The translations under genes and the position numbers were made by a program. This document shows positions 1,347-59,010 of a stretch of 64,000 nucleotides of DNA, piece by piece. Source of the stretch: a virus; the IMG/VR virus record IMGVR_UViG_3300009180_000039, positions 1-64,000 of that record; one strand, 5' to 3'. Each line of letters starts with the position of its first letter. Position 1 is the first letter of the stretch. The notes below the pieces were generated by a model, which was given only the letters and a program-made list of their open reading frames with translations, was not told the origin of the DNA and ran no database searches.

Positions 1347-1535
1347 ATGAACATTTCAGACCTATCCGCTACTGAACTCGAAGCCCTTGCTTTCCGCCAA
1401 ATTTGTGCAAGGGACCAAGCCAACCAAAATCTACAAGTCATCGTAGATGAACTTGCTAAGCGGTCTAAGGCCGCTCCAGAATCCACAACACCGGAATCGC
1501 CGGAAACACCTGATGCCGTCCAAACTAGCCTTTGA
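1347..1535 (+). CDS. Small helical protein, unknown
   Basis: This 62-residue protein has an amphipathic helical N-terminal half (LSATELEALAF and QVIVDELAKRS). It ends in a Pro/Glu/Thr/Ser-rich tail. Its 3' end overlaps the likely start of the methyltransferase gene by 23 bases in another frame. The composition looks coding, but no family is recognised. It may be a small structural or regulatory protein co-transcribed with the fibre genes. Confidence 0.5.
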   Translation: MNISDLSATELEALAFRQICARDQANQNLQVIVDELAKRSKAAPESTTPESPETPDAVQTSL

Positions 1536-2130
1536 CATAGGTGCCAACGTAGGCACCAAAACCCAGGAACTCCTAGCCGCTGGCTACGATCAAGTAGTAG
1601 CGGTGGAACCGCTCTGTGAGAACAAGTATCCAGCGGACCCAAGAGTGATTTGGGTCAAATCGCTGGTTTCTAATTCGACAGAACCTAGGCAGATATTCCC
1701 CGCAGGAACCGTATCCACAGTTGAGCGGGACTTTATGGAAGGTAGATTCAAGGGCTTCACATGGGGTTCCCCCATCACTTGCCAAGCAACTACAATCTCG
1801 AATCTGATTGACGCTTACGGCGTTCCAGATTACATCAAGACTGATGTAGAGGGCCATGAGCTTAGCGTATTGCAAGGTATACCTAGCCCCAGTCTAGTGC
1901 CTCTTATATCGTTTGAGTGGTGTTCTGAGTTCAAATCCGGTGCCCTAGCGTGCGTTTCGCACTTGGGGGCCTTGGGCTATCGGCAATTTGCTGTACAATT
2001 GGGCGATGAGGGCGTTAGCCCTCCCGAGCAATTGTACGATGTGGCTGGTGTGGCTGAGCATCTAGGCAATCTTTGCAATGAATACAAGCTACCTTGGGGT
2101 CAAATTTGGACAGCTTTAACACCGATTTGA
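1513..2130 (+). CDS. FkbM-type SAM-dependent methyltransferase
   Basis: The predicted enzyme of about 205 residues has a Rossmann SAM-binding start at residues 5-15 (LAFDIGANVGT). It also has the FkbM hallmark KTDVEGHELSVLQG near residue 115. FkbM-family enzymes usually O-methylate sugars or small molecules. I chose ATG at 1513 because the SAM motif follows at once; an in-frame start at 1447 would add unrelated residues in antisense-rich sequence. A second FkbM gene lies at 10980. The substrate is unknown; a virion or host glycan is an inference from the phage's glycosyltransferases. Confidence 0.82.
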   Translation: MPSKLAFDIGANVGTKTQELLAAGYDQVVAVEPLCENKYPADPRVIWVKSLVSNSTEPRQIFPAGTVSTVERDFMEGRFKGFTWGSPITCQATTISNLIDAYGVPDYIKTDVEGHELSVLQGIPSPSLVPLISFEWCSEFKSGALACVSHLGALGYRQFAVQLGDEGVSPPEQLYDVAGVAEHLGNLCNEYKLPWGQIWTALTPI

Positions 2131-10979: not shown

Positions 10980-11618
10980 ATGCTAATCTCTCTGAATGAT
11001 GTCAAAGACCTATGGGCCAAGTTTGGCCTGAGAGGTCTTAGTGTGCCGAGTATCTTGCACTCGGTAGCTCATGTGGGTGGGCACTATGGGGAGGAGATAC
11101 CAGACTACTTGGCTGCTGGGTTCGATCCGATTGACGTATTCGAGCCGCTGGCGGCTAATTGTGACGTAATCCGGAAGACGAACAACAGTGACCGGGTACG
11201 ACTGTATCAGGTAGCCTTGGGCTCTCAGGCTCTGGCAGGAGTACCTATGTTTGTCTCCAGTAATGAGGCACAGAGCAGTAGCCTGCTCAAGCCTACCCAG
11301 CACACAGTCCAGTATCCCAGCATTACGTTCGATAAGCAAGAGGTTGTCGATGTCTGGCCCTTAGATGGCTACCGACTAACGCCTGATCTCCTGGCGATGG
11401 ATACCCAGGGCTATGAGCTAGAAGTCCTTAAAGGTGCCACAGAGACGCTGAAAAGCGTTAAGGTGGTCTATACCGAAGTGAGCAATGTACCACTGTATGA
11501 AGGCTCGGCACTGGTCGAGGATCTCGACGAGTTTCTCCAGCCCTATGGCTTCAAGAGAGTCCGAACAGACTGGGTAGGTGTCACTTGGGGAGATGCAGTC
11601 TACGTTAAGATCCCATAG
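10980..11618 (+). CDS. FkbM-type methyltransferase, second copy
   Basis: This is 212 residues. The SAM-binding region is degenerate at the start (HSVAHVGGHYGEE, with VFEPLAAN following). The hallmark LAMDTQGYELEVLKGA and the downstream KVVYTEVSNVPLYEG are clear FkbM features. TAGGAGGGGG precedes the ATG, an excellent ribosome site. It stands alone as a rightward unit bounded by the control region and a bidirectional terminator. It is divergent from the 1513 gene and so not a recent duplicate. Likely O-methylates a sugar; target unknown. Confidence 0.82.
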   Translation: MLISLNDVKDLWAKFGLRGLSVPSILHSVAHVGGHYGEEIPDYLAAGFDPIDVFEPLAANCDVIRKTNNSDRVRLYQVALGSQALAGVPMFVSSNEAQSSSLLKPTQHTVQYPSITFDKQEVVDVWPLDGYRLTPDLLAMDTQGYELEVLKGATETLKSVKVVYTEVSNVPLYEGSALVEDLDEFLQPYGFKRVRTDWVGVTWGDAVYVKIP

Positions 11619-19355: not shown

Positions 19356-19377
19356 TCCACAGGAAAAACGAAGTATT

Positions 19378-20490
19378 ATGAGTGATGTCCAAGTAGATTA
19401 CATGCAGCACACCGGGAACGGCTTCGAGACAAGCGGTTCGGTTGCAGCAGTCATGGCCAATCCAAATGCGGATTACATGACCAAACGACCTTTCATCCAT
19501 GACGACGGACGTTCCTACGTTCCCGTATGGAATGGAAAGTACGATGCGAACGGGAACCGTGAATACACGGTCCAAGTTAGCAATGCTGGAGCAGTCCTCC
19601 GCAAGAATGAATGGGAATTTTTGGATCGCCGATTGGTTGAGATTGCCAAGCCTCGCTTGCAACTCATCAACTCGATGCGTGCTGCTGGTTTGGTTGTGAA
19701 CTTCCCAGAAGCTTACAGCCACTCGCTCTATCAGTACGAACGAGTTAGCGACATCGACGGAGCATCCGTCAGCATGTCGCCAAAGACCAAGGGAACCAAT
19801 GACCGTAGCACGGTCGATTTGGTTAGCGTTCCATTGCCAATCATCCACAAAGAGTTCTACCTCGAAGCTCGGGAAATCGCCATCGCCCGTAAGACGGGCC
19901 AACGGCTTCCAGTTCACTTGCTCGACCTTGCAGGTCGCCGAGTAGCTGAAACCGCTGAGCAAATGGCTCTCGGAACTTGGGGTACTTACACTTACGGTGG
20001 AGCAACCCTCTACGGTTTGACGAACTTCCCCAGTCGAAACACCGGAGCGTTCTTGAACCCAACAGTTTCGGGATGGACTCCTGACATGCTGTACAACAGC
20101 GTGCTCACCATGATTAAGGCAGCCCAAGATGACAGCCAGTTTGGTCCTTACGACTTGTACCACAGCACTGGCATGATGGTTCCAATGAACCGGATTTTCA
20201 GCCAGAACTATGCTGGTGGCTCCGTAATGGAAAAACTACGTCAGATCAGCTTGATCTCCAACATACAACAACTTGATTACCTTAGCGGTAACCAACTGTT
20301 GCTCGTACAACGAGATCAGATGACTGCTTCCTTGCTCATGGGCATGGACATGCGAGTCGTTCAGTGGAACACTGACGGTGGTGAGTCTGTTCACTTCCGC
20401 GTTATGATGATGATGACCCCGATCTTCCGCTCCGATCAAAGCGGCCAAAGCGGTATCGTTCACTTCACCGGCAACGCGACAACTGTTTAG
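19378..20490 (+). CDS. Major capsid protein
   Basis: This is 370 residues from ATG at 19378, with ACAGGAAAAACG upstream. Position after protease and decoration genes, size and content (PFIHDDGRSYVPVWNG, a helical spine-like RRLVEIAKPRLQLINSM and beta-rich MGMDMRVVQWN) fit an HK97-fold capsid protein. A strong terminator follows directly, as is usual for this most abundant product. Not assigned to a named Pfam family by me. Confidence 0.82.
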   Translation: MSDVQVDYMQHTGNGFETSGSVAAVMANPNADYMTKRPFIHDDGRSYVPVWNGKYDANGNREYTVQVSNAGAVLRKNEWEFLDRRLVEIAKPRLQLINSMRAAGLVVNFPEAYSHSLYQYERVSDIDGASVSMSPKTKGTNDRSTVDLVSVPLPIIHKEFYLEAREIAIARKTGQRLPVHLLDLAGRRVAETAEQMALGTWGTYTYGGATLYGLTNFPSRNTGAFLNPTVSGWTPDMLYNSVLTMIKAAQDDSQFGPYDLYHSTGMMVPMNRIFSQNYAGGSVMEKLRQISLISNIQQLDYLSGNQLLLVQRDQMTASLLMGMDMRVVQWNTDGGESVHFRVMMMMTPIFRSDQSGQSGIVHFTGNATTV

Positions 20491-24168: not shown

Positions 24169-24551
24169 AATTCAAGTTAGAGGGTGCTAAGCAACTAGAG
24201 AAAGCCCTTCTGAAGTACCACAAGGACCAGGGCAAGGCTTTTGCGTCGGTTTTACCGACCATCGCCCGAGACATCCTAGCCGAAGCGGTGCCGATGGCAC
24301 CCATAGACACCGGAGCCTTGAGGGCCTCGGGGGACTACTTTGTCGAGGGCACTGGATGGAACGCGGTAGCGGTCGTAGGGTTCGGGTTCCCCGTCTCTGG
24401 ATTCTTCAAGGGAAACCGAGAGCGGATTCCCGCTGAATATGCTGTCTATCAGCACGACGACCCCTACCAGAACAAATACCTGGAGTATGCGGTGGATAAT
24501 CGCATCGATGATGCCTCAGACCTATTCTGGCAGGAGCTAGCATACGCATGA
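24165..24551 (+). CDS. HK97 gp10-like tail completion protein
   Basis: This is 128 residues. The pattern AVPMAPIDTGALRASGDYF and a late YAVYQHDD match the HK97 gp10 family, which completes the head-tail junction. It overlaps both neighbours by four bases. The position is canonical. Confidence 0.82.
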   Translation: MKFKLEGAKQLEKALLKYHKDQGKAFASVLPTIARDILAEAVPMAPIDTGALRASGDYFVEGTGWNAVAVVGFGFPVSGFFKGNRERIPAEYAVYQHDDPYQNKYLEYAVDNRIDDASDLFWQELAYA

Positions 24552-24979
24552 CCACTACCACTACCACTACCACGACGCCCGCTCCGGTACGGAGCACTGC
24601 CGACCTAATGTACAGTGTAATCCTAACCAAGGCCACTGCCTTGGGATTCAGTGTATTTGTCAACCACATGCAAGACCAGCCTGACAAGGCTATTCTTGTC
24701 CGAGACGTAAAAGGCAAGCTTGATGACCGCGAAATGCGGGGCGAGCATTACGGGCACGATGGGGTAGAAATCCAAGTCCGAGCCCCCTCCCACCTAGAAG
24801 CCTCGAACGTGCTTCCTGTGCTATGGGAAGATGTCTTAAAACGAGTCAACGGCACCTCGGTAGCAGGCAAAATTGTGCAATGTATCACAAAAGCTAATAC
24901 AATGGGGTGCATGGGCCAAGAACCACAGACCCGCCGCTGGCGGTTTATTCAGACTTTCCTAGTAACGGTGATAAATTAG
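24548..24979 (+). CDS. Tail terminator-like protein with poly-Thr N-terminus
   Basis: This is 143 residues. The first residues are M followed by nine Thr, then PAPV. This is the first of several tail proteins here with Thr/Pro/Ala linkers. The remainder (ILVRDVKGKLDDREM, DGVEIQVRAPSHLEASNVL) fits a tail terminator of the minor tail protein U / DUF3168 type. It overlaps the gp10-like gene by four bases. Confidence 0.65.
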   Translation: MTTTTTTTTTPAPVRSTADLMYSVILTKATALGFSVFVNHMQDQPDKAILVRDVKGKLDDREMRGEHYGHDGVEIQVRAPSHLEASNVLPVLWEDVLKRVNGTSVAGKIVQCITKANTMGCMGQEPQTRRWRFIQTFLVTVIN

Positions 24980-24980
24980 C

Positions 24981-25436
24981 ATGTCAGACAGAATACTTCA
25001 AAACGGTTTCCGTACAATTATTGCGATTGCTGGTATTACCGCAAAGTTCCAAGAAGTCTCGGTAACCCCCATCGGCTTGCAGGCAGATGATTCCGTTGAG
25101 CAAACCAACATGCGAAACTCCAACTGGCGAACATTCGCCGGTGGTGCTTTGCTAACGGCTACGGAAGTCAATGTCAAGGTTCACTATGCTCCAGGTGCTT
25201 GGGAGCAAGTGCGGCCGATCTTGCGAAGCAATCGCTTCATCACCTTGACTATGCCTGATGGTGCAACCATCTCCTTTTATGCCATCGTCCAGTCGTTCGT
25301 CCCAGACGAACACACGATCAACGAACAACCTACCGCCACTCTGATTTTGATTCCAAGCAACCTGACGACCAGCAATCCGCCTGCGGAAATTGGTCCGATT
25401 TACGCAACGGGAACTACCACAACGGTAGCACCGTAA
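24981..25436 (+). CDS. Major tail (tube) protein
   Basis: This is 151 residues, beta-rich. It has FQEVSVTPIGLQADDSV and VKVHYAPGAWEQVRPIL, then FYAIVQSFVPDEHTI. Size and position right before the G/GT chaperones fit a tail-tube protein. Its C-terminus ends TGTTTTVAP, again a Thr/Ala/Pro run. Confidence 0.72.
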   Translation: MSDRILQNGFRTIIAIAGITAKFQEVSVTPIGLQADDSVEQTNMRNSNWRTFAGGALLTATEVNVKVHYAPGAWEQVRPILRSNRFITLTMPDGATISFYAIVQSFVPDEHTINEQPTATLILIPSNLTTSNPPAEIGPIYATGTTTTVAP

Positions 25437-25460
25437 TTCTTTCCCCCTGAGTGAGTGGCT

Positions 25461-25823
25461 ATGTTAAAAGTAAGCATTAAGACGAAGACCATCGACGTTA
25501 CCCTCGAAAACGAGGAAGGCGTCGAAGTCAAGTACAAGATCCGACAGATGACCGGAGCCGAAGCAGACGAGTATCGGTCGGTCAAGGCTAACAAGATTGA
25601 GTTGGACAAGAACGGTGAATTGGTCAAGGTCTTGGACTACAGCGGCCAGTACATCGACCTGCTTTGCAGGACTTTGGTAACTGCCGAAGGTAAGCCGGTC
25701 CCATCGACCACGATCAATTCTTGGCCCGATGAGGCCCTGAAAGTCTTGTTCGATGAATCTGCGAAGCTGAATCGATTGTCCGGTGATGTTGAAGACGAGG
25801 AACTCGACCCAAAAAAATCCTAA
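25461..25823 (+). CDS. Tail assembly chaperone G
   Basis: This is 120 residues from ATG at 25461; a GTG at 25455 is also possible. It begins with beta strands (VSIKTKTIDVTLENEEGVEV), then helices (MTGAEADEYRSVKANKI). It ends DPKKS right after the slippery run of seven A. It acts with its frameshifted longer form to fold the tape measure. Position between tube and tape measure is canonical. Confidence 0.8.
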   Translation: MLKVSIKTKTIDVTLENEEGVEVKYKIRQMTGAEADEYRSVKANKIELDKNGELVKVLDYSGQYIDLLCRTLVTAEGKPVPSTTINSWPDEALKVLFDESAKLNRLSGDVEDEELDPKKS

Positions 25824-26128
25824 CGGATTCTGAGTATCTCTGGTTCCACCTAGCACATGAACTAGGCTTGCCGTTACAGGTCGTCAAGGCGTACACGCCA
25901 ATCGACGAGTTTGAAAAGTGGCAAGCCTATTTTTATATCAGGCGGAGCAAAAATGAGAAGCAGGACTACTATTTGGCGAGTATCGCCCATTTAGTCGCCT
26001 GTACTATGGGCGGTTCTAAAACTAAGCTTGAGGAGCACTTAATCAAGTTTACCCCTGCCAATGAGAAGTATAACCCAGATGCCAGCAAGAATGCTTGGTT
26101 CACTGCCCTAGGGATAACGCCACAATGA
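25461..26128 (+). CDS. Tail assembly chaperone GT (-1 frameshift product)
   Basis: Ribosomes that slip -1 on A-AAA-AAA (25811-25817) continue from DPKK into ILTDSEYLWFHLAHELGLPL. They then read to 26128, giving about 222 residues. The extension has IDEFEKWQAYFYI, typical of GT extensions (compare SxxEFxEWxAFY). The downstream frame lacks its own good start codon until about 25868, supporting frameshift expression. It binds the tape measure during tail assembly. Confidence 0.85.
25811..25817 (+). promoter_or_regulatory. Programmed -1 frameshift slippery heptamer
   Basis: A AAA AAA in the zero frame of gene G, four codons before or at its end (then TCC TAA). This is a classic slippery sequence. 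I see no strong downstream hairpin within 30 bases, so slippage may depend on the run alone or on the nearby stop. Confidence 0.85.
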
Positions 26129-28311
26129 GCGGACCAAAACGCGAATTACCTCCCATACACGTCAAGATAACCGGAGACCCTTCAGGGGGTCTTAAGGCTA
26201 TTCAGGATGTCGTAGACGCATCGAAGCAGGCGAACAAGGATATCGGTGCTGCGGGTAAGAAGCAGACCAAAACCGAAGCACAAGTACACAAGCAAACAAT
26301 TGCAAATCTACGTGAGCATATTAAGCAACGTAAAGGTGTACAAAATGCTATAGAAGGAATCCGAAGATCGAGTGAAAAATTCGCTCGGCAGCAGGCAGCA
26401 GAGGACGCTCGCGTCCTACGTCGCCAAAGAATGCGTGAACGCAATCGCCTACAGACCATAAAGGCGTCAAGGCAAGCAAGAGTATCCTCTATGGGATCTA
26501 TGGCCCGAGGAGCTTTTGGTGGGGGCTCTATGATGGGTGCCCGTGCCGATATGTATATGCACCAAGAGAGCCTGCAAAGTATGGGGGCGGGAATACTTAG
26601 TTTGATTCGCCCATTTGCACAGGTAGAGAACTACACCATTCAGATGGAGGCATTTTCCGGCTCGGTGGAAAAGGCGCAGAAAACGGTAGCCGAGCTACAG
26701 GCGTTTGCTATTAAGTCGCCCTACTCATTAGAAGGGGTGCTGGAAGCTTCGGCTACCTTGATGAAATACGGGGCAAGTGCAGAACATGCCTTGGAGGTAA
26801 CCAAGCTACTGGGGGCAGTAGCAGGCGGAGACACAAACAAACTACGCCTACTGGCTATCGGTACAGGGCAGGCAGAAAGAATGGGTAAATTAAGGCAACA
26901 GGAACTTAACCAGTTGCTTAATGCTGGATTCAGTCCACTTTCGATAGCTGCCAAAGAAATGGCCGGACCTGGAGCCGATGAGGCTGCAATTACTAAGATG
27001 GCACAGTTACTAGAAGAAAACAAACAGGCAGGTAAGCTAAGTTCCAAAATTATTACAGCGGCCTTGAAAATAGCTACCGCAAAAGGCGGGGACTTTGCGG
27101 GACTACTGGATAAGCAATCCAACACCCTAACAGGTTTGGCTAGCCAGATTATTGAGACGTTGGACCTAGTAAGCATTGAGATCGTCAAGGTATTTGCTGG
27201 AGACCTTGCCACACTAATGAAAGAAGTTAAGAGGTACTTAGATGCTGTAGTGGAATGGGTAAAGGCCAACAAAGATGTAGTGGAAAGCTATGTAAAGTTA
27301 GGGCTACAGATCGGAGAGGCGGTAGCCGCTTTTTCCGCATTAGCAATGGCTATAGCCTACACTAAATGGATTATGGGTTCATTAGGCACCGTATTCGGTC
27401 CCTTGCTCAAGGCATTGATTTTTACAGCAGGCGCAGTAATTTCTGTAGCCAGAGGATTTATATTTCTAGGGAATATGGCGATGGCATCAGGCATAAAAGC
27501 CACTATCGCTTGGGTACTAGCGACTTTACCTATCTCTGGGACGGCGTTGGCTATCATAGCAGTCATCGCCGCTTTCGCGGCCCTGTGGGTTCTTATAGAA
27601 GGATTCTCTAGTGACCGTGGGTTCTACGGTATCTTTCAGGACGGCATGACTGCCGCAGGGAATTTTCTTGGATTCATGTGGAACTTCGGTGAGAACTTTG
27701 TGAACATATTCAAGTTCATTGGGGAGAACTGGAAACTACTCGTATATGACATGCTCATTACCAATAACCCCTTGATCTCGCTAGCACGAATGGGGGCTAA
27801 AGCCTTGGGTATGGGCAAGGGCTTCCTAGGCGTAGAAGAGACCATGAAGAGTGCTTCTATGGGATTAGTGGGAGGCAGTCCCCAATTAGATACGTCCATG
27901 TTCAAGTTCGACCTACCTAAGATGGACACAAAGACCTTGTTGGGCATGGGTGATGCTAGTTTTGGTATTTCTAAGGCCCTAGCCCCCTACCTAAAGGCAC
28001 CCGAGAAACCAGCCGAGATTCCAGACAAACCCAACATCGACTTTAACCAATTCCTAGGTAAAGGCAGTAAGGGAGGTTCCGGAGGAAGTGCCAATATAGG
28101 GAACAGGGAACATGCTATTCGTGGGTCAGGGGACCATGCGGTACGCATGTATGAATACGGAGAGAGCGTTAAGCCGCAACCAGCAACAGACCCCAAGCAA
28201 CAGCACCAGAAAAAGGTCGAAGACCTTCTAAGCGGTATTGAGAAAAACACAAGACTTAACGGTCCTCTACAAGGGGGCACAGGCATTGAAGAGGCAGCAC
28301 TAACTCGATGA
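26125..28311 (+). CDS. Tape measure protein
   Basis: This is 728 residues from ATG at 26125, coupled to the GT stop (ATGA). The N-terminal part is basic and coiled-coil. A tape-measure N-terminal domain follows (VENYTIQMEAFSGSVEKAQK, then AFAIKSPYSLEGVLEAS). The middle has long hydrophobic helices (LGLQIGEAVAAFSALAMAIA, GTALAIIAVIAAFAALWVLI). It sets tail length; with about 0.15 nm per residue a tail near 110 nm is expected. The C-terminus is Gly/Ser/Lys-rich. Confidence 0.9.
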   Translation: MSGPKRELPPIHVKITGDPSGGLKAIQDVVDASKQANKDIGAAGKKQTKTEAQVHKQTIANLREHIKQRKGVQNAIEGIRRSSEKFARQQAAEDARVLRRQRMRERNRLQTIKASRQARVSSMGSMARGAFGGGSMMGARADMYMHQESLQSMGAGILSLIRPFAQVENYTIQMEAFSGSVEKAQKTVAELQAFAIKSPYSLEGVLEASATLMKYGASAEHALEVTKLLGAVAGGDTNKLRLLAIGTGQAERMGKLRQQELNQLLNAGFSPLSIAAKEMAGPGADEAAITKMAQLLEENKQAGKLSSKIITAALKIATAKGGDFAGLLDKQSNTLTGLASQIIETLDLVSIEIVKVFAGDLATLMKEVKRYLDAVVEWVKANKDVVESYVKLGLQIGEAVAAFSALAMAIAYTKWIMGSLGTVFGPLLKALIFTAGAVISVARGFIFLGNMAMASGIKATIAWVLATLPISGTALAIIAVIAAFAALWVLIEGFSSDRGFYGIFQDGMTAAGNFLGFMWNFGENFVNIFKFIGENWKLLVYDMLITNNPLISLARMGAKALGMGKGFLGVEETMKSASMGLVGGSPQLDTSMFKFDLPKMDTKTLLGMGDASFGISKALAPYLKAPEKPAEIPDKPNIDFNQFLGKGSKGGSGGSANIGNREHAIRGSGDHAVRMYEYGESVKPQPATDPKQQHQKKVEDLLSGIEKNTRLNGPLQGGTGIEEAALTR

Positions 28312-29300
28312 CAACCACTCCAGCACCAACTACAACCCCAGCACCAAACCCGCCAGCACTGCGAGGCCCCCTCGCACACCGCTTTACTCGGGATGAGGAA
28401 GGGCATCGTTTCTACGAAATTGACTGGCACGTCGAGACTAATAGCTCCCATGATAATATAGCCTTCATTTTGGCGAACTGGCCCTTATTCGCAGTGGGGT
28501 CGCCTTTTAATTTGGCGTCAGCGTGGCCGGAGACCCAAGGGACCGACGCCTGGGCGTTCTGTACGCCCCAGCTAAACATTGCCCCCCACCGAGACAATAA
28601 AGAATTCTCGGGCGTCCGCCACTGGGTTATCACGCAGTATTGGTCCACTAAACAATCTTGGAGATGTCAAACTTTCCCGGTCGAGAATCCGCTATTAGAG
28701 CCCGTGGACTATTCCGGCGACTTCGTACATGAGCAAAGGCAGGCAAGCGTTGACCGCTTCGGTAAGCCATTGATTTACCCTACGTTTGAGCCTATCGAAG
28801 GCCCAGCTAGGGAGTACCAGTATTCATATCCCACAATCAACATTAGTTTCAATTCGGCAACCTTGCCGCTTAGTACCTATGTGAACCTAGTCAACAAGCT
28901 AAATGATGCACAGCTATGGGGATTACCTCCACGTACTGTTAGATTTGCTGACGCTAGATGGGAACGTAAGGTCTACGGAAACTGTTTCTACTACTTCCAT
29001 ACTACCTATGTGTTCCACTTTGATATTAAAGGATTTGACATAGAAGTACCTGCCCAAGGTCTTAAAGAGTATGGAGGTTCTGGGTCGTTTGACGACCCTA
29101 ATAGCTACTCACAAGCAAAAGATAAGAAAACAGGCGAAAACCTACCTATCGGACCTTTAGACGCTAATGGGCGACGGCTGGTATTTAAGGGCTACACTGT
29201 AGATGGTTTGGTAGAATACGTCTATCCCCAAGCAATTCTAAAGCCACAAGTCCAGGACCAAGGCAATTTACTCCTACTAGGCATACCAGCGACACTATAA
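28308..29300 (+). CDS. Tail protein with TTTPAP linker start
   Basis: This is 330 residues beginning TTTPAPTTTPAPNPP. It is rich in Trp, Tyr and Phe (NIAFILANWPLFAVGSPF, VRHWVITQYWSTKQSW). A second half has YGNCFYYFHTTYVFHFD. It probably belongs to the distal tail, being directly after the tape measure. No family is recognised. The linker could extend from the tail surface. Confidence 0.6.
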   Translation: MTTTPAPTTTPAPNPPALRGPLAHRFTRDEEGHRFYEIDWHVETNSSHDNIAFILANWPLFAVGSPFNLASAWPETQGTDAWAFCTPQLNIAPHRDNKEFSGVRHWVITQYWSTKQSWRCQTFPVENPLLEPVDYSGDFVHEQRQASVDRFGKPLIYPTFEPIEGPAREYQYSYPTINISFNSATLPLSTYVNLVNKLNDAQLWGLPPRTVRFADARWERKVYGNCFYYFHTTYVFHFDIKGFDIEVPAQGLKEYGGSGSFDDPNSYSQAKDKKTGENLPIGPLDANGRRLVFKGYTVDGLVEYVYPQAILKPQVQDQGNLLLLGIPATL

Positions 29301-29301
29301 C

Positions 29302-29775
29302 ATGGAAAAAGTATCACTAAACCCCCAGTCCGTTGAAGTAAACTCTGACCGAGCTACTATTGTCATTCAGGCTACCTACCAAGAGTTCGACCCGTCGAAC
29401 CAAATGGCCGCGTACCACGGCTTTGACTGGATCAACCCTGCGGCGGAAACTCCGTTCCAGACTGCTATGAAGGTCAGCCCCAGCGAGCGGTCACCGCTCA
29501 ACATTGGGCACTTGGAATGGGGTAGAGTCATCCTAGTCCTATCGAATGATAAGCCGAGAACGGCTAAAACCATTCCAGAGGACTTGCGTAAAGCCATTGA
29601 ACTCAATACAATTACTTTAACTAATGCTGACGGGCAGGTAGTCGGAATAATCCGACCCCGTAGAGCAAGTGTGGTAGAATACCCGTTTCCTGTCTTTGCC
29701 CAAGCGAACAACGCTTCCGCGTTGCTTAGCATAACCGCGTTCCCGGTAACAAACGATGAAGAAATTCCTGCTTAG
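29302..29775 (+). CDS. Small tail protein, unknown
   Basis: This is 157 residues, beta-rich (RATIVIQATYQEFDPSN, VILVLSNDKPRTAK, QVVGIIRPRRASVVEY). It starts one base after the previous stop and overlaps the next gene by 20 bases. It may be a baseplate or tail-tip component from position. Confidence 0.55.
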   Translation: MEKVSLNPQSVEVNSDRATIVIQATYQEFDPSNQMAAYHGFDWINPAAETPFQTAMKVSPSERSPLNIGHLEWGRVILVLSNDKPRTAKTIPEDLRKAIELNTITLTNADGQVVGIIRPRRASVVEYPFPVFAQANNASALLSITAFPVTNDEEIPA

Positions 29776-32497
29776 TGAAGGCGACCGTAACGAGCTAAGG
29801 CGTCTACTATCAGCAGCCCGGTCGGCTCCGGCCCCTACAGTATTGCGGGATGTATCCCGAAAGACTTTCTTCGAGGGGGATACCTACTGGGCACTTCCGC
29901 CCTGTGAAACAGGGCTACCTGCCGCTGAGTTCGTTGGAGATCAATGGACATCCTACGGCATCAAGTGCTGTCTATTCAAGAAAGATGCTTTCACGAATAA
30001 GATGGAACCGCTGCTAGATGCAGTCGGTAATCCTATTCGCGTCGAGGTGTGGAACCACTATGGCACCAGTGAAATGAACCTAGTGCAGGTCCACAAGCAC
30101 AAAGAGGGCTTTTGGACGAATGAGCGTCCACTGGGAGCCACAGCAAATACAGCAGTCAACCAAAGCACTACCAGCGGCCCTATTATTCCGCAATGTGCAG
30201 GTAAGTGCGTCTGGACTGCTGACGCTAACGGCGTCTGGCAGTGGCCTACGGGCGGTTGCACCGCTAGTTCAACCACTTCTACAACTACAGGGGCACCCAC
30301 TACCGGAGCACCTGGAGCAGGTAGCACCGCTCCGCCGCTCGGGATACCTACAACTCCGGCACCGTGCCAAGCAGCCCCTCCTTGCTTTCTAGTGTGCATA
30401 GACACATCAACAACTCCGGCACCTGACGAATACGGTGTCCCTGTGCCCTATACCCGCTTCCGCTATGCAATGAAAGTAGGGTCATCCTGCCCGGCTGGAT
30501 GCAAGTGCTACGGGCTCGGAGATCCTTGCTTCCTAGTAGCTGGGGAGCTAAAGTCTTCCTGTATTGGAGATACAGCAGCTACTTCCACGACCACAGCGGC
30601 ACCCGGCTCTACTCCTCCGCCTGAAGCATACCCTTGTGTGGAAGCCACGTTCATATTCGGCACGGTTCCACCTAACATTCGGCGGATTGCATACAAGATC
30701 AACGGAGATGTAGAGCCTTGCCAAGAGTGCTCAGACCCTAAAGCGGATTTCTATTCTCCGGGAGCAGTGCCCTATCGTCAGCACGATTGGCGTAAACTGT
30801 CTACAGTTTACGAATCGCCCTGTGTTGATAGCCCTTGCGTACTTGCTCCTGATAGCGAAGGGTTGCCCATGTTCACTGCATTCGCATACACAGATCAGGT
30901 AAATGTATGGGGAGCAGCCAACAATCCAGCAGTTTACGATAACACCCCAGGACTGCCAGCACCCCGATATTTGGCTAATTGGTTCAATTGCGAAGTAACG
31001 CTTCGAAACCGTAGACCGAACCGTACCCCGCCTCTTTGGATCTACGACGTAGATGATTCTGTATCGACGCTTAATACTGCTAGAGGTATTACGTTTGAGA
31101 ACGGTGTTTACGTTTTCCGCACTATTTGGGCTGAAGGTCTAGCTTGTGGTAATTGCGGTCGGGGACCGACCCTATTGGAGAAAGACCGAGTTAGTGTAGA
31201 GCCAGGGGGAAGCACTACTTCCACTACTACCAGCACTACGACCACACTAGGTCCGTGCGGCTGCGTTCGCCCAAACTATTGCCCATTGCCTTTTGAATGC
31301 ACGCTTACAGCGTGCGTTAGGGGCGGGGAAGTAGTCAACGGTACTCCAGGAACTACTAGATCACCTGTCGTACCCTGCTTTCCTGACAGTCCACCTACTT
31401 CCACCACTAATGGTCCTAATCAGTGTATCGATAGTAGGGGCAAGCGATGTGTTTGTGGAACAGGCACTACTACAACATCGAACCCTGGCGGCAATTTACA
31501 AGACCCTAGATGTCCTAACGGTTTTTATTATGGTTATCCACCAAATGATCTTACAGGTTGCGCTCCCGGACAATGCTATCCAATCAGCACAGTCCCTCCT
31601 ATTGATGCACAGAAATGCTGGGCAGTGAATTGCCGAGGCAGTTGCGGGTGGCTAGGGCAATATACAAATGCCCGTGGAGGAATTCATCCACCTGATAGGG
31701 CCGGGTTAGCGTGGGTTAGGTTTTACGAACCACTTGGCGGTACGCTCACGGGTGATTTGCGCACAATAGGATGTACTACCGACGTACAGTGCGAGGACGG
31801 TGGCTTTTACCCAAACATGGGATGCAGTATTCTTGGAAGCTATCCGGGATGTTTCCAATGTCAGTGTATACCCCCTGCGGAACCACCTGCGACATGCGGG
31901 CAGATAACATACACAGGATGTAGAGGACAGGACTACCGTGAGTGTGCTTGCTGTACCCCGACTACTACGGGAAGCCCTTGCGGAGTTAGAACCTGTCGCT
32001 ATCGAGCCAACTCGGCATTAAATTGGGTTTTGGTTACCAATAGCTGCATTCTCAATTGCCCTTGTCCCAACCCTGCGGGACTGCCCCGCCCTGTGGAAGA
32101 ATGCGAGTCTCTTACACTTACTTGCGGGCAGACCCTACCTCCCCCCACAACTTCACCACCAACTACAATCAATCCCTGCCGTTGTGGCGCACAGAATTGC
32201 GGTTGTTCTACGGGAGGAATTGTGTACTGCCCTCCAGGAACAGTTTTTAATTGCATTAACTGCTTGTGTCAAACAACTACCTCGGCACCGACAACCTCTA
32301 CCTCAGCACCGACAACTACATTTACCCCTTGCGGGGGCGCAAATTGCGGGGCAACGAATTGCGGCTGCACTGGAGGCTACACATGGTATTGTAATGGAAT
32401 CGGAGAAGTCTACGATTGCTCCGTGTGTGGGTGTGTCACAACAACCACATCAGGCCCCGTAACAACGAATTTGGTCACAAGTTCACTTCCACCATAA
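29756..32497 (+). CDS. Large Cys-rich, Thr-rich modular tail protein
   Basis: This is 913 residues. A short N-terminal domain (to about 140) is followed by alternating Cys-rich modules and Thr/Ser/Pro/Ala linkers (such as STTSTTTGAPTTGAP and TTSTTTSTTTTLGPCGC). Near the C-terminus two modules repeat the pattern NCGCxGGxxxYCxxG, then CxxCxC and TTS. The overall look is mucin-like, with many disulfide-bonded knots. It lies directly before a glycosyltransferase fusion gene. Likely a tail appendage; glycosylation of the linkers is inferred. Confidence 0.7.
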   Translation: MKKFLLSEGDRNELRRLLSAARSAPAPTVLRDVSRKTFFEGDTYWALPPCETGLPAAEFVGDQWTSYGIKCCLFKKDAFTNKMEPLLDAVGNPIRVEVWNHYGTSEMNLVQVHKHKEGFWTNERPLGATANTAVNQSTTSGPIIPQCAGKCVWTADANGVWQWPTGGCTASSTTSTTTGAPTTGAPGAGSTAPPLGIPTTPAPCQAAPPCFLVCIDTSTTPAPDEYGVPVPYTRFRYAMKVGSSCPAGCKCYGLGDPCFLVAGELKSSCIGDTAATSTTTAAPGSTPPPEAYPCVEATFIFGTVPPNIRRIAYKINGDVEPCQECSDPKADFYSPGAVPYRQHDWRKLSTVYESPCVDSPCVLAPDSEGLPMFTAFAYTDQVNVWGAANNPAVYDNTPGLPAPRYLANWFNCEVTLRNRRPNRTPPLWIYDVDDSVSTLNTARGITFENGVYVFRTIWAEGLACGNCGRGPTLLEKDRVSVEPGGSTTSTTTSTTTTLGPCGCVRPNYCPLPFECTLTACVRGGEVVNGTPGTTRSPVVPCFPDSPPTSTTNGPNQCIDSRGKRCVCGTGTTTTSNPGGNLQDPRCPNGFYYGYPPNDLTGCAPGQCYPISTVPPIDAQKCWAVNCRGSCGWLGQYTNARGGIHPPDRAGLAWVRFYEPLGGTLTGDLRTIGCTTDVQCEDGGFYPNMGCSILGSYPGCFQCQCIPPAEPPATCGQITYTGCRGQDYRECACCTPTTTGSPCGVRTCRYRANSALNWVLVTNSCILNCPCPNPAGLPRPVEECESLTLTCGQTLPPPTTSPPTTINPCRCGAQNCGCSTGGIVYCPPGTVFNCINCLCQTTTSAPTTSTSAPTTTFTPCGGANCGATNCGCTGGYTWYCNGIGEVYDCSVCGCVTTTTSGPVTTNLVTSSLPP

Positions 32498-32569
32498 TTA
32501 GCGGCTTGCAAAATCAGCAGTATTCGCTAAGCTAATAGAAACTTCGTTTCTCCTGTTCAAGGAAACTTT

Positions 32570-34588
32570 ATGCCTAAATACAGTATTTGCATGGCTACAT
32601 ATCAAGACTTCTATGGGGTCGATTCGACCATCATGGGCTTGCTTATGTACCAAGACATGACCGATTGCGAGATTGTGGTCCTAGACAACGACCCACGGGG
32701 AACACACGCCAACGATCTCCGGGGACTCATCAACAACATCGGGGACAGCATTTGCCCTGTTCGCTACGTCGAGATGGAAGGCAATAACGGCACCTCTGCC
32801 ACCCGCCAAAAGCTATTTGACATAGCCGAGGGCGAAGTGGTTATGGTGATGGATTGCCACGTATTCCTTCAACCAGATGCCATCAAGAACTTCAAAGCAT
32901 TTTGGGAGTCTGCCGACTCCGAGATGCGAAAGAACCTGTTTACAGGTCCATTGATTATGGACTCTCTCAATTGGCGACAGACACACTTCGAGTGTGAATG
33001 GCGACAAGAGATGTGGGGTACTTGGGCTACTACTTGGAAGAAAGACGGCGAATACTACGTTGCCAAGGAATCTGAGGATCATACCAAGATTCAGATGCGA
33101 AAGCACCTAGCTACCGAAGTAGTCTATGAGTTCAATCATGCTTGGCCGGGGCATGAACATGCCCTACGGAAACTAGGCTTTGAGCCAGCGGGCGTTAATC
33201 CAGAAGATCCTATCTTCGAGATTCCTGCCCAAGGGCTCGGACTGTTTATCTCGTCTAAGGAACATTGGCTAGGCTTCAACCCGCACCACAAGCACTTCGG
33301 CGGGGAAGAGTGCTACATCCATGAGAAGTACCGGATGGCTGGTCGTAAGACCTACTGTATCCCGTTCATGGGATGGCGGCACCGCTTCGGTCGCCCAGAG
33401 GGACCACGTTACCCCATCTCCCGTGAAGGGAAGATGCGGAACTACGTCCTAGAGTTCCAAGAGCTAGGACTTGACCTAGAACCGATCCGAAAGCACTTCA
33501 TTGATGAAATCAAGCTGAAGCCGGAAGTCTGGGACAAGTGCATGGCTGATCCGATCAACTTCAACCCGTTTGAAACATGGGCAGCTAACACTCATCCAGA
33601 GAACATGAAGCCGATTGTCCGAAGCAATCACGGTATGTTCCTACCTGTGAACATGGGAGACTTGGGTGCTATGGCAATCGAGGTTGCTGCGCAACCCCGT
33701 GACCTGCATGAGCACTTGTCTACATTCCTGATCTATGGAAGTCGTTCGACTTCTGTGCTTGAGCTAGCTAAGCGTCGAGAATCGACGTTGTTCTGGGCAG
33801 CCGGACTGAACCGGAAAGCCTGCAAAGGCTCCTGTAGCAAGGCAGCCTGTGACTGCAAGGCTAAGCTTGTTAGCTATCAAGCAGAGCAAGACAGTCTATT
33901 GGCTATGATTACCCAGTCGGTGGAAGTTAATCCTGGTCGCCTTGCGACCGTGGATATCTTCGATAAGCCTTTGGACGGGGAATTGCCTGACATTGATGAA
34001 GACTTCTGCACACTGTACATCGACGAGTTGCATACCCACGCCCGTTTGACTGAGACCTTGGACAAGTACAGGGATCGAATTACAAAGTACATCGTTATTC
34101 GCGGTTCTAGTGCGGGCAACGCCGGTAATACCGGCGAAGACGGACAGAAGCCCGGTATGCTACATGCTATCAAGATGTTCGTGAAAACGAACCCACAGTG
34201 GTTTGTAGCGGTACATGCTGAGAACTGCTATGGGCTCACAGTGCTCTCTTGTGTTGAGGCAGAACGGCCCGAGACGGAAATCCGTCCTTGGCCTGTTAGT
34301 GACGATGCCGGGAATCCCTGTGGTGTAGGCACCGAGATTGCTAAGATCCTTAGCTCTATCGGTATCGAGTCCACGCCTACCTGCGCGTGTAACGCGATGA
34401 AGGCTAGGTACGATAGTATCGGTCCCGATGCCTGCCAAGACGAGATCGAAAAGATCCTTGATTGGATGTATGAACAAGCTGTGGCTAGGAAGCTAGAGCA
34501 CTTCTTTGTTCGCACTGCTGTCCGCATGGCGGTCCAACTGTCTATCCGCCGAGCCCGAAAGAAGATCAGTAAGGGTGTCTGTAGCTAA
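32570..34588 (+). CDS. Glycosyltransferase 2 + methyltransferase-like + CxC-domain fusion
   Basis: This is 672 residues. Residues 1 to about 330 are a GT-A glycosyltransferase (KYSICMATYQDF, EIVVLDNDPRG, VVMVMDCHVFL). About 350-560 resembles a SAM-methyltransferase-like domain (FLIYGSRSTSVLELAKR, DFCTLYIDELHTHARLTE, ITKYIVIRGSS). The C-terminus has GVGTEIAKILSSIGIESTPT, CACNAMKARYD and a helical end, a domain I know from many phage proteins. It ends the structural operon, next to the Thr-rich tail gene, which makes that protein a candidate substrate. Confidence 0.75.
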   Translation: MPKYSICMATYQDFYGVDSTIMGLLMYQDMTDCEIVVLDNDPRGTHANDLRGLINNIGDSICPVRYVEMEGNNGTSATRQKLFDIAEGEVVMVMDCHVFLQPDAIKNFKAFWESADSEMRKNLFTGPLIMDSLNWRQTHFECEWRQEMWGTWATTWKKDGEYYVAKESEDHTKIQMRKHLATEVVYEFNHAWPGHEHALRKLGFEPAGVNPEDPIFEIPAQGLGLFISSKEHWLGFNPHHKHFGGEECYIHEKYRMAGRKTYCIPFMGWRHRFGRPEGPRYPISREGKMRNYVLEFQELGLDLEPIRKHFIDEIKLKPEVWDKCMADPINFNPFETWAANTHPENMKPIVRSNHGMFLPVNMGDLGAMAIEVAAQPRDLHEHLSTFLIYGSRSTSVLELAKRRESTLFWAAGLNRKACKGSCSKAACDCKAKLVSYQAEQDSLLAMITQSVEVNPGRLATVDIFDKPLDGELPDIDEDFCTLYIDELHTHARLTETLDKYRDRITKYIVIRGSSAGNAGNTGEDGQKPGMLHAIKMFVKTNPQWFVAVHAENCYGLTVLSCVEAERPETEIRPWPVSDDAGNPCGVGTEIAKILSSIGIESTPTCACNAMKARYDSIGPDACQDEIEKILDWMYEQAVARKLEHFFVRTAVRMAVQLSIRRARKKISKGVCS

Positions 34589-34648: not shown

Positions 34649-35251
34649 CTAGCCTTCCCCTACCCACTTAGTAACATCAGTACAACCCCAGTCCACCGGG
34701 AGCCAAGTCAAGCTCGTACCGAACTTGACTTCGGCACTATTGCTCCTGTAGCCTAGAACGTCTTCGCCGTCGATGGCTTCTATCTTAAACAGATCCCCTT
34801 GCCGGTCAAGGATAGTCCCAGGCACCCAGCCGCGATACTCGGCAATCCTAGCAGGGGATATGCCATAGGTAAGCCAGATTACTCCAGTCGCATCGGGTCG
34901 TGTAACGACCACCGGAAGCTGTTTCTTTCGGGCTTCGATAATCATGCTTCGGCATCCTCCGGACTCTCCATCCCAGATGGCCAGTAATGCGTTGCCTAAT
35001 TCGGCCATTTGGCGATTTCGCCTAGGGCCTGCTGCATTACCGTAGCCGAGCCAATCAGCAGGGTAATTCTCCACCGGAATCCCTAGGTTCGAAAAGAACG
35101 CTTTAGCTGCTGCATCTATCCCCCTGGCCCCACCCTGTAACAGGGTAGTGGCCGCTGGGAATAGCTTTAGGTAGCTGGCGTAGCTAGCTTTGACCTGGGA
35201 CATCGCTGCGCGATGCTGGGTGTTCCTGGAACCGGAAACTATTAGTCTCAT
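34649..35251 (-). CDS. YspA/SLOG-type nucleotide-binding protein (DUF2493-like)
   Basis: This is 200 residues. The Rossmann-like pattern is RLIVSGSR at the start, LLQGGARGIDAAAKAF, then YPADWLGYGNAAGPRRNRQM and LLAIWDGESGGCRSMI. This fits the YspA/SLOG superfamily that binds nucleotides or derivatives. Its C-terminal 70 residues (GTILDRQGDLFKIEAIDGED) are a separate beta domain. It overlaps the second glycosyltransferase by four bases. Possible roles: nucleotide-ligand sensing or defence interference (inference). Confidence 0.78.
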   Translation of the reverse strand: MRLIVSGSRNTQHRAAMSQVKASYASYLKLFPAATTLLQGGARGIDAAAKAFFSNLGIPVENYPADWLGYGNAAGPRRNRQMAELGNALLAIWDGESGGCRSMIIEARKKQLPVVVTRPDATGVIWLTYGISPARIAEYRGWVPGTILDRQGDLFKIEAIDGEDVLGYRSNSAEVKFGTSLTWLPVDWGCTDVTKWVGEG

Positions 35252-36021
35252 TGGCTTTGTCCTGTAAAAACTTTGTACATCTGCATGACCTGTCCATGCA
35301 TTTCATTGTATCTCGGCACCAAAGGACCATCAGGGATGGTCGTGGGTGGTGTATCTGTGTACCAGGAATTATCCTGAGCACCCATTCTACCGGAGCAGTG
35401 GTCGTCGAACGACATATCCCACATATACACATACCCTGGTCGGTCTGGCCCCTTTGGGGCACCGCCGAACTGGTCTCGCATACGCTGTAGGAACTGCTGG
35501 TCAAAGATCGGCAGAACGCAGGTGCCGTAGCCCCCAATCGCTCGTAGCGATTCTAGGCGATAAGCACTACTAGCCCAAAACCGACCCCCGGAGTCCTCAA
35601 CCCTGAACTGTCCCCCGTAGCTACTATACACCTTGCTTGGGTAGCTCCAAGGTTCTGTTTCCAGAACTTTTGCATGATCGCTGAGAAAGTGCGGTAGGTA
35701 CAGGTCGTCATCGTCCATGACGCAGACGTAGGCATCGTGCCACACCGGAATATCAGCTTCGGCAACGCCGAAGTCGTACTTAGCCATTAGGAATGGGAAC
35801 CGTTCTGGGACTGTGATGTGATAGATCCCTCGGTCGTTTGACGACCCTTGAAGTGTTCGCATTTGCTGCGACGGGTATCCGGGGCGGTCGTCAATCAGAT
35901 ACAGTTCGGCTCTGCCTTCGTAATCCTGCGAAAGAAAACACTGCATCAGGTTTTCAGTCCACTCTTGCCGGTGATTCCAAACGGCACAGAGGCAAATGAA
36001 CAAGGGGGTTTTATTACTCAT
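35248..36021 (-). CDS. Glycosyltransferase family 2
   Basis: This is 257 residues. The GT-A fold shows LFICLCAVWNHRQEWTENL, AELYLIDDRPG and VCVMDDDDLYLPHFLSDH, the DXD metal site. The acceptor part includes YRLESLRAIGGYGTCVLP. It probably transfers an activated sugar to an unknown acceptor. It is encoded with the SLOG gene and small proteins at the end of the minus-strand operon. Overlaps next genes by one to four bases. Confidence 0.82.
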   Translation of the reverse strand: MSNKTPLFICLCAVWNHRQEWTENLMQCFLSQDYEGRAELYLIDDRPGYPSQQMRTLQGSSNDRGIYHITVPERFPFLMAKYDFGVAEADIPVWHDAYVCVMDDDDLYLPHFLSDHAKVLETEPWSYPSKVYSSYGGQFRVEDSGGRFWASSAYRLESLRAIGGYGTCVLPIFDQQFLQRMRDQFGGAPKGPDRPGYVYMWDMSFDDHCSGRMGAQDNSWYTDTPPTTIPDGPLVPRYNEMHGQVMQMYKVFTGQSQ

Positions 36022-58187: not shown

Positions 58188-58348
58188 GCTGAGTAAACGG
58201 TTTCGATGCCCCAGCTAACTGCTGAGCCTATGCAAAGACCAAGAGTGAAATCATGTAGCGGGCCGTCGTTTACGACGAAAGTGTAGACACCGGCAAAAAT
58301 TGCCAGAGTACCTAGTCCCGTGAGTATTAGTTTGCAGGTCAGTATCAT
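58169..58348 (-). CDS. Small two-span membrane protein
   Basis: This is 59 residues from ATG at 58348 (ATGA overlap with the protease stop). Two hydrophobic stretches (LILTGLGTLAIFAGVYTFVV and FTLGLCIGSAVSWGIETVY). Its coupling with a secreted protease gene suggests a shared envelope role. Confidence 0.55.
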   Translation of the reverse strand: MILTCKLILTGLGTLAIFAGVYTFVVNDGPLHDFTLGLCIGSAVSWGIETVYSAWKKRP

Positions 58349-59010
58349 TGTTTCTTCGCCCATTCCAATAGTTCTTTGAGCCTACGGGCGGACCCCGCCC
58401 TCGCAGGCCATGTGACATTACGCTCTTGGTCCTCTGTGGCTTTATGCCACTCGGACCCTCCTGACACCACGCCAATAATCCCTGTGTCTATAACGGCGGG
58501 ACCGCCGCTCTGTCCTGGAGCCACAGAGCTATCTGAGTATACACTGTCTTTGGCAGCAAAGGACACTTTTCCAGAAGTTTCTAGCCAATTTCCGCTACCG
58601 AACCCGTAGAACGTGACTTTCACGTTACTGGGCTGATAGCTGAAGCCAATCTTATCTACTCGTAGATCCTCGGCTACATCGACCAAAGCAAGCAGTTCAA
58701 ACCGCTTGCTAGTGGTACACTGGATGACTGCGACATCTGCCTTAACGTCCACAGCGGACACCTTGGCATTGGGCATGTCCTTGATCGTGTCATTCTCCAA
58801 AGTGTAGGAGTTACCCTGGAACATCATACCATTGTCCATTAAAACGACATGGGCAGCGGTTCCTAGGTAAACCTTATCGCCTATCTGCTCGATGGCAAAG
58901 GCAGTGCCTTGGCTCTGCTCGGGGGTTCGGATGCGAAAGACACCATTGCGTTCTGGGTCTACCGCCATCGCTTGCGATGCTATGAACAAGAAAGCCAGTA
59001 AGTATTTCAT
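58345..59010 (-). CDS. Secreted trypsin-like serine protease
   Basis: This is 221 residues. Signal peptide YLLAFLFIASQAMA, then a chymotrypsin-fold domain: His in LGTAAHVVLMD, Asp in VKADVAVIQC, Ser in SVAPGQSGGPAV. The full triad is present. It would act in the host periplasm or outside the cell. Secreted proteases are rare in phages; roles in lysis, superinfection exclusion or host-protein turnover are possible. Confidence 0.82.
   Translation of the reverse strand: MKYLLAFLFIASQAMAVDPERNGVFRIRTPEQSQGTAFAIEQIGDKVYLGTAAHVVLMDNGMMFQGNSYTLENDTIKDMPNAKVSAVDVKADVAVIQCTTSKRFELLALVDVAEDLRVDKIGFSYQPSNVKVTFYGFGSGNWLETSGKVSFAAKDSVYSDSSVAPGQSGGPAVIDTGIIGVVSGGSEWHKATEDQERNVTWPARAGSARRLKELLEWAKKQ

Follow-up and report, generated by a model that had tools for sequence, protein, structure and literature searches.

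The window that we analysed covers bases 1-64000 of an uncultivated viral record that is 70,242 bases long. Its plus-strand genes are in the order that is typical of a siphophage: terminase, portal, major capsid protein, connectors, and then the tail genes. The tail genes, which we name by their start positions, run from a tail terminator (24548) through the major tail protein (24981), the tape measure (26134), gene 28308, a small protein at 29302, and gene 29756 to a glycosyltransferase (GT) at 32570. The major capsid protein (19375-20487) has a match to DUF6260 and a weak one to the encapsulin family Linocin_M18. In the early region, a minus-strand gene (58345-59010) encodes a trypsin-like protease (PF13365) with a signal-like N-terminus. 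The tail genes and their Thr-rich segments are:

24548-24979, plus strand: tail-terminator-like protein (PF12691, E = 1.3e-4, slightly below the cut-off)
24548..24601, plus strand: N-terminal tag MTTTTTTTTTPAPVRSTA on the tail-terminator-like protein
24981-25436, plus strand: major tail (tube) protein, from gene order and from matches of relatives to phrog_158 (major tail protein)
25392..25433, plus strand: C-terminal tail GPIYATGTTTTVAP of the tube protein
26134..28311, plus strand: tape measure protein (PF20155, E = 1.9e-15; phrog_9959, 1.8e-19), which anchors the tail module; the start codon is our choice
28308-29300, plus strand: 330-aa protein in the distal-tail position, downstream of the tape measure
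28308..28349, plus strand: N-terminal tag MTTTPAPTTTPAPN on the 330-aa protein
29756..32497, plus strand: 913-aa Cys-rich tail-tip protein with 71 Cys and seven Thr-rich segments
30248..30316, plus strand: segment TGGCTASSTTSTTTGAPTTGAPG of 29756 (aa 165-187)
30563..30616, plus strand: segment IGDTAATSTTTAAPGSTP of 29756 (aa 270-287)
31196..31261, plus strand: segment VEPGGSTTSTTTSTTTTLGPCG of 29756 (aa 481-502)
31451..31495, plus strand: segment VCGTGTTTTSNPGGN of 29756 (aa 566-580)
32132..32167, plus strand: segment TLPPPTTSPPTT of 29756 (aa 793-804)
32267..32335, plus strand: segment CQTTTSAPTTSTSAPTTTFTPCG of 29756 (aa 838-860)
32429..32479, plus strand: segment GCVTTTTSGPVTTNLVT of 29756 (aa 892-908)

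The phrog_158 match was found for 2 of 13 relatives of the tube protein (1.3e-5), and a profile of the tube protein found no credible relatives in the PDB.

An earlier note on this DNA described Thr/Pro/Ala linkers in 24548, 24981, 28308, and 29756, and all four are where it placed them. The 24548 product opens with M-T9-PAP, the 24981 product closes with GTTTTVAP, and the 28308 product opens with MTTTPAPTTTPAP. So three of the proteins have terminal tags, while the 29756 product has 130 of its 913 amino acids in Thr-rich segments. Our linker criterion picked out five genes in the 65-gene set: these four and 59436, which is helicase-like and which we consider to be a false positive. When we shuffled the residues of the proteome, a mean of 0.5 genes and a maximum of 3 were picked out. 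Shuffling within each gene equalled the observed value in 8 of 2000 trials for 24548, 90 of 2000 for 24981, 5 of 2000 for 28308, and 0 of 300 for 29756. By composition, then, the 24981 segment is marginal by itself, and it is conservation that supports it instead. TPxP sites are concentrated in the four tail proteins (6 sites in 1537 aa, versus 3 in the remaining 14,969 aa), and the count within 29756 alone shows no excess over shuffles.

The segments differ in how well they are kept among relatives. Homologues of 29756 are present in all close relatives and have several Thr-rich segments apiece. The 24548 tag is variable or missing, having been gained and lost, and the 28308 tag may be present, absent, or shifted to the C-terminus. 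Three of the related loci (L005, L008, and L009) have an extra gene immediately upstream of the GT, with a repeat of TTTPAP/TTTPEA that is 130-170 aa long. Near-pure Thr runs of up to about 190 residues occur in other phage proteins near the GT (L081:4802-5836, L035:1113-3329, and L046:5038-8211).

As the earlier note stated, the GT gene directly follows 29756: it starts 72 bp downstream. Its features are:

32576..33550, plus strand: GT-A catalytic domain, GT27-like, residues 3-327 of the 672-aa protein encoded by 32570-34588 (PF00535, E = 1.6e-9)
32852..32860, plus strand: DxH metal motif, D95-C-H97; D and H are invariant in 36 diverse relatives
33296..33310, plus strand: F243-GGEE, the putative counterpart of GT27 WGGEN, from alignment and profile comparison
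33374..33382, plus strand: W269-x-H271, candidate third metal ligand (the conserved His of GT27), aligned with the GT27 region GHxF
33698..34264, plus strand: degenerate class I methyltransferase-like domain, approximate limits; motif I is LELAKRREST

For the N-terminal domain, the only Pfam label is GT2, and the earlier note likewise called the enzyme a GT2. It overlooked a likeness to the polypeptide GalNAc-transferases of family GT27 (ppGalNAc-Ts), which start mucin-type O-glycosylation in animals and apicomplexans. An AlphaFold2 model of the GT-A domain, built from an alignment of 36 members from viral loci, has a pLDDT of 94.6 and a pTM of 0.91. (A full-length model from just 7 sequences had a pLDDT of 45.6 and was discarded.) When we compared the domain model to the PDB with Foldseek, the best 50 matches were all GT27 polypeptide GalNAc-transferases (best E = 4.8e-12), with TM scores of about 0.5-0.6 and 12-16% identity (about 13%). 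The sequence profile aligns to GalNAc-T10 (9.4e-7), T4 (3.4e-5), T7, T12, T2, and T1, and these alignments span most of the catalytic domain, including the DxH, GGE, and His of GT27. The top-scoring PDB sequence for this profile is a different GT (6h1j), but that match covers the nucleotide-binding half only; a profile of the full-length GT found no credible relatives in the PDB. In the 36-member alignment, D-x-H, GGEE, and W-x-H are invariant or nearly so, and D95, H97, and H271 are invariant. In GT27, the Asp and the His of DxH and the later His bind the catalytic Mn2+ (PMC11074326; PMC6994419). As modelled, then, the 32570 enzyme resembles GT27 polypeptide GalNAc-transferases more than it resembles generic GT2 enzymes.

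We do not file it as a member of GT27 (as defined in CAZy), because it has no match at that family's cut-off and no lectin domain, and its activity is predicted. PF00535 is the only family above cut-off; PF02709 matches 8 of the 36 relatives, at best at 0.022, which is below cut-off. The phage enzyme has the GT-A fold, the DxH motif, the later His, and the GGE motif in common with ppGalNAc-Ts, and presumably also a taste for Thr-rich acceptors next to Pro; one characterised ppGalNAcT strongly prefers sites with an adjacent Pro, and Thr over Ser (PMC4245494). The differences are that identity is just ~13%, that FGGEE replaces WGGEN (with Phe in place of Trp), that there is no apparent membrane anchor, that the enzyme is found in phages and bacteria, and that a degenerate methyltransferase-like half stands where many, but not all, GT27 enzymes have a ricin-type lectin domain. 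Given the low identity and TM scores of just 0.5-0.6, the donor and the acceptor could differ from those of GT27.

The earlier note called this protein a GT2-methyltransferase fusion, which holds for the C-terminal half only by way of relatives. For residues ~330-672, Methyltransf_24 matches 9 of 17 relatives (best 2.4e-7) and RMNT_CmcI matches 7, which relates this half to those methyltransferases. The window's copy has no family match of its own, and a profile of this half found no credible relatives in the PDB. Where motif I should be ExGxxxGxS, and where relatives from Planctomycetota have VVEFGMRHGVST, the window's copy has LELAKRREST and has lost the glycines. Unlike the Methyltransf_24 and RMNT_CmcI enzymes, it lacks the glycine-rich loop for SAM, and its sequence suggests that it is unlikely to be active as a methyltransferase.

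The GT recurs beside Thr-rich genes. The family has at least 151 viral and at least 100 bacterial relatives, and a gene that encodes a strong Thr-rich segment lies within 2 kb of the GT in 18 of 30 non-redundant viral loci and 17 of 56 non-redundant bacterial loci. As a control, we took 20 of these bacterial genomes and considered 40 neighbourhoods of their other GT2 genes, none of which had a Thr-rich gene (the control is matched to the bacterial loci only, for which p = 3e-5). We rejected the window's second GT2 as a viral control because all of its relatives are in contigs that carry the first GT. With their Thr-rich parts masked, the 39 partner proteins form 28 families without detectable similarity to each other, so the feature that the partners share is the Thr-rich sequence. 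Because they share nothing else that we can detect, we take this sequence to be the acceptor. The partner gene is upstream and on the same strand in 31 of 39 cases and within 150 bp in 21, and in a tree of the GT, 16 of the 17 members of the window's clade have a partner.

The pairing does not extend to every poly-Thr protein or to every relative of the GT. Thr-rich viral proteins are far more common than the GT, and none of 72 random poly-Thr viral loci had the GT nearby. Our home-made profile for generic GT2 enzymes found none in 73 poly-Thr loci, but of 75 loci known to have a GT, it picks one up in just 36. Among the remoter viral relatives, many lack a nearby Thr-rich gene, and their GT is mostly about 285 aa; of 32 such records, 24 are without any run of six Thr. 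These may have another substrate, or they may be fragments. A tblastn search of 50,697 isolate phages with the GT and the tail proteins gave no match, while a terminase control hit 1358 records.

In bacteria, small proteins with TTTPAP-like tails are encoded beside GT-family genes in Pseudomonadota and Actinomycetota (L241:11948-12373, L243:1467-1889, L246:4888-5571, and L299:7918-8367), which suggests a cellular branch of the same pairing. In many of these loci the GT has a long N-terminal extension, with TPR repeats in L246. We also noticed two BFVD matches, A0A6J5NK11 and A0A6J5MV95, which are proteins of uncultured Caudovirales that are named "Glycosyltransferase, GlcNAc" (a GT60-type name); it is possible that these are analogues that act on other Thr-rich phage proteins.

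The C-terminus of the tube protein is conserved. It ends with TTTTVAP, TTTTTTLAP, TTTTTTTTPAP, or similar in 12 of 13 relatives, among which the identity of the core falls as low as 33%, and nearly all relatives with at least about 50% identity keep the tail. Among 32 tube-family loci with sufficient downstream DNA, the GT is in the record for all 20 whose tube has a Thr tail and for just 1 of the 12 whose tube does not, and that one record has another Thr-rich gene. Because no more than one or two contrasts in the tree are independent, we view this co-occurrence as concordant rather than as independent evidence. Also, in L028 and L432, which have the GT and a Thr-rich gene, the tube protein lacks the tail, which counts against glycosylation.

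Three other genes in the window might contribute to a glycan. The earlier note mentioned a second GT2 and two FkbM methyltransferases encoded elsewhere, and all are there:

35248..36021, minus strand: second GT2, candidate glycan extender (PF00535, 23.4 bits against a cut-off of 23.3)
1447..2130 (match 1534-1878), plus strand: FkbM-type methyltransferase (PF05050, 1.6e-11), not conserved in the group
10980..11618 (match 11073-11555), plus strand: FkbM-type methyltransferase (PF05050, 5.6e-16), not conserved in the group

FkbM genes are found in 3 of 15 related records, so we regard them as accessory. The second GT2 occurs in close relatives only, and all 6 of its loci are in contigs that also carry the first GT. 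Between the two GT genes is a minus-strand gene (34649-35251) for a SLOG-family protein (YspA/cpYpsA-related, PF10686).

Together, we think that these observations probably reflect phage-encoded, mucin-type O-glycosylation of the tail tube and the tail-tip protein by the 32570 enzyme (we infer the activity, the acceptor, and the sugar). The enzyme would be soluble and metal dependent and would work like an animal ppGalNAc-T. In the cytosol of the infected cell, it would transfer a sugar, most likely a HexNAc, to Thr or Ser within the Thr/Pro/Ala segments of the co-expressed tail proteins. The main acceptors would be the 913-aa tail-tip protein and the tube protein, whose many subunits would each be modified on the C-terminal tail, and the outcome would be a mucin-like coat, presumably exposed on the virion's tail. 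The second GT2 and, in the window, the FkbM enzymes may extend or methylate the glycan. The coat could protect against proteases, bind the host's surface or mucus, or mask the virion. The earlier note suggested that the two GTs and the FkbM enzymes could decorate the tail jointly. The core of that idea, predicted glycosylation of the tail by the adjacent GT, is strongly supported by the fold, the motifs, the recurring gene pairing, and the conservation of the tags, while the wider system is weaker, given the sparse FkbM genes, the narrow range of the second GT2, and the degenerate methyltransferase half.

Could the segments be unmodified? Thr/Pro/Ala sequences are typical of linkers, and these might be flexible linkers and terminal tags between Cys-rich modules, with the GT merely located in the tail operon. 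That would fit with the many viral contigs that have poly-Thr stretches without this GT and with the gain and loss of the N-terminal tags. We think it unlikely, as the GT family has Thr-rich neighbours that belong to 28 unrelated families, in phages and bacteria alike, and the generic GT2 genes have none around them. Also, the tail of the tube protein is conserved even though it links nothing, and the fold of the GT is that of enzymes that glycosylate Thr or Ser in polypeptides. That the segments are neutral expansions at the DNA level seems extremely improbable. The 24548 tag does contain a stretch that is nearly an (ACCACT)n repeat, but the Thr codons within the segments are mixed (ACT 23, ACA 22, ACC 19, and ACG 8). 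In the tube tail, the Thr codons vary between relatives while the residues TTTTVAP do not change, which argues for selection on the protein and against slippage, and contradicts a microsatellite origin for this tail.

Other explanations accept that the enzyme is active but assign it another role. It might modify a surface polysaccharide of the host, for receptor masking or superinfection exclusion, or it might modify phage DNA. Phage GTs with such roles are known (discussed in PMC12619734), and targets in the host are possible. But the fold matches GT27-like enzymes and not those that act on lipids or DNA, the gene is in the late tail operon immediately after a Thr-rich gene, and the same pairing occurs in bacteria outside of phages, so we consider this quite unlikely. 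Only slightly less doubtful is the idea that the enzyme lengthens a glycan that the host or another enzyme began. Some GT27 enzymes act solely on peptides that are already glycosylated (PMC11074326), and the second GT2 is nearby; on the other hand, many relatives have the GT and Thr-rich genes but lack the second GT2, and the record shows no other apparent candidate for initiation.

If the 32570 enzyme does initiate glycosylation, how does it compare to known systems? The polypeptide alpha-GlcNAc transferases of GT60 (of the Skp1 and trypanosome mucin types) are also DxH GT-A enzymes and act on Thr or hydroxyproline, but none of the 36 GT members match the Pfam family for GT60 (PF11397). In mycobacteriophages, glycans have been reported at the C-termini of capsid and tail tube subunits, according to the account of Freeman et al. 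2023 in PMC12619734. As in that account, the GTs here are phage encoded, in the same genome as the tagged virion proteins; the differences are that the GT is GT27-like and that its presumed acceptors are the tail of the tube protein and a long tail-tip protein that is rich in Cys and resembles mucin. In Streptococcus mutans, the Pgf system acts on the Thr-rich region of Cnm, and similarly, the GT gene is directly downstream of the gene for its target; but PgfS is membrane bound, it works with two membrane proteins and an epimerase, and the target is a secreted cell-wall protein (PMC5856776). So virion glycosylation is known from mycobacteriophages, and it is the pairing of a GT27-like enzyme with mucin-like virion proteins that we did not find described. 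In the literature that we searched, with most subscription papers out of reach, there was no earlier report of a GT27-like enzyme from a phage or a prokaryote.

It is possible, although we would stop short of calling it probable, that a widespread family from prokaryotes and phages, homologous to animal ppGalNAc-Ts, performs mucin-type O-glycosylation of Thr/Pro/Ala-rich proteins. In phages the targets would be virion tail proteins, and in diverse bacteria they would be proteins with TTTPAP tails. Mucin-type glycosylation of proteins would then not be confined to eukaryotes, and a phage would be using it to build a mucin-like coat for its tail. Our analysis names a candidate enzyme and acceptor sequence for a proposed phage pathway of protein glycosylation, which is seen repeatedly in uncultivated phages and across several bacterial phyla. 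For at least one group of phage proteins from metagenomes, it offers a function for the poly-Thr segments. It also suggests that enzymes of the ppGalNAc-T type, which are most familiar from animals, have relatives in prokaryotes and viruses that act on similar peptides. A small soluble GT of this kind could be a useful tool for making O-glycosylated peptides in bacteria.

Finally, in cellular assemblies, the nearest relatives that share the methyltransferase-like half are largely from Planctomycetota, so the host of the window's phage is likely planctomycetal, as far as sequence relationships can indicate. Two planctomycetal loci resemble the window's tail module. L221:2975-11773 contains a major tail protein, a tape measure, a Thr-rich gene, and the GT beside genes that appear to be chromosomal; because non-phage genes follow, it could be what is left of a prophage, or it could encode a tail-only particle. 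In L227:3169-16637, whose contig also appears to be chromosomal, a tail module with a Thr-rich gene and the GT is near a phage integrase.
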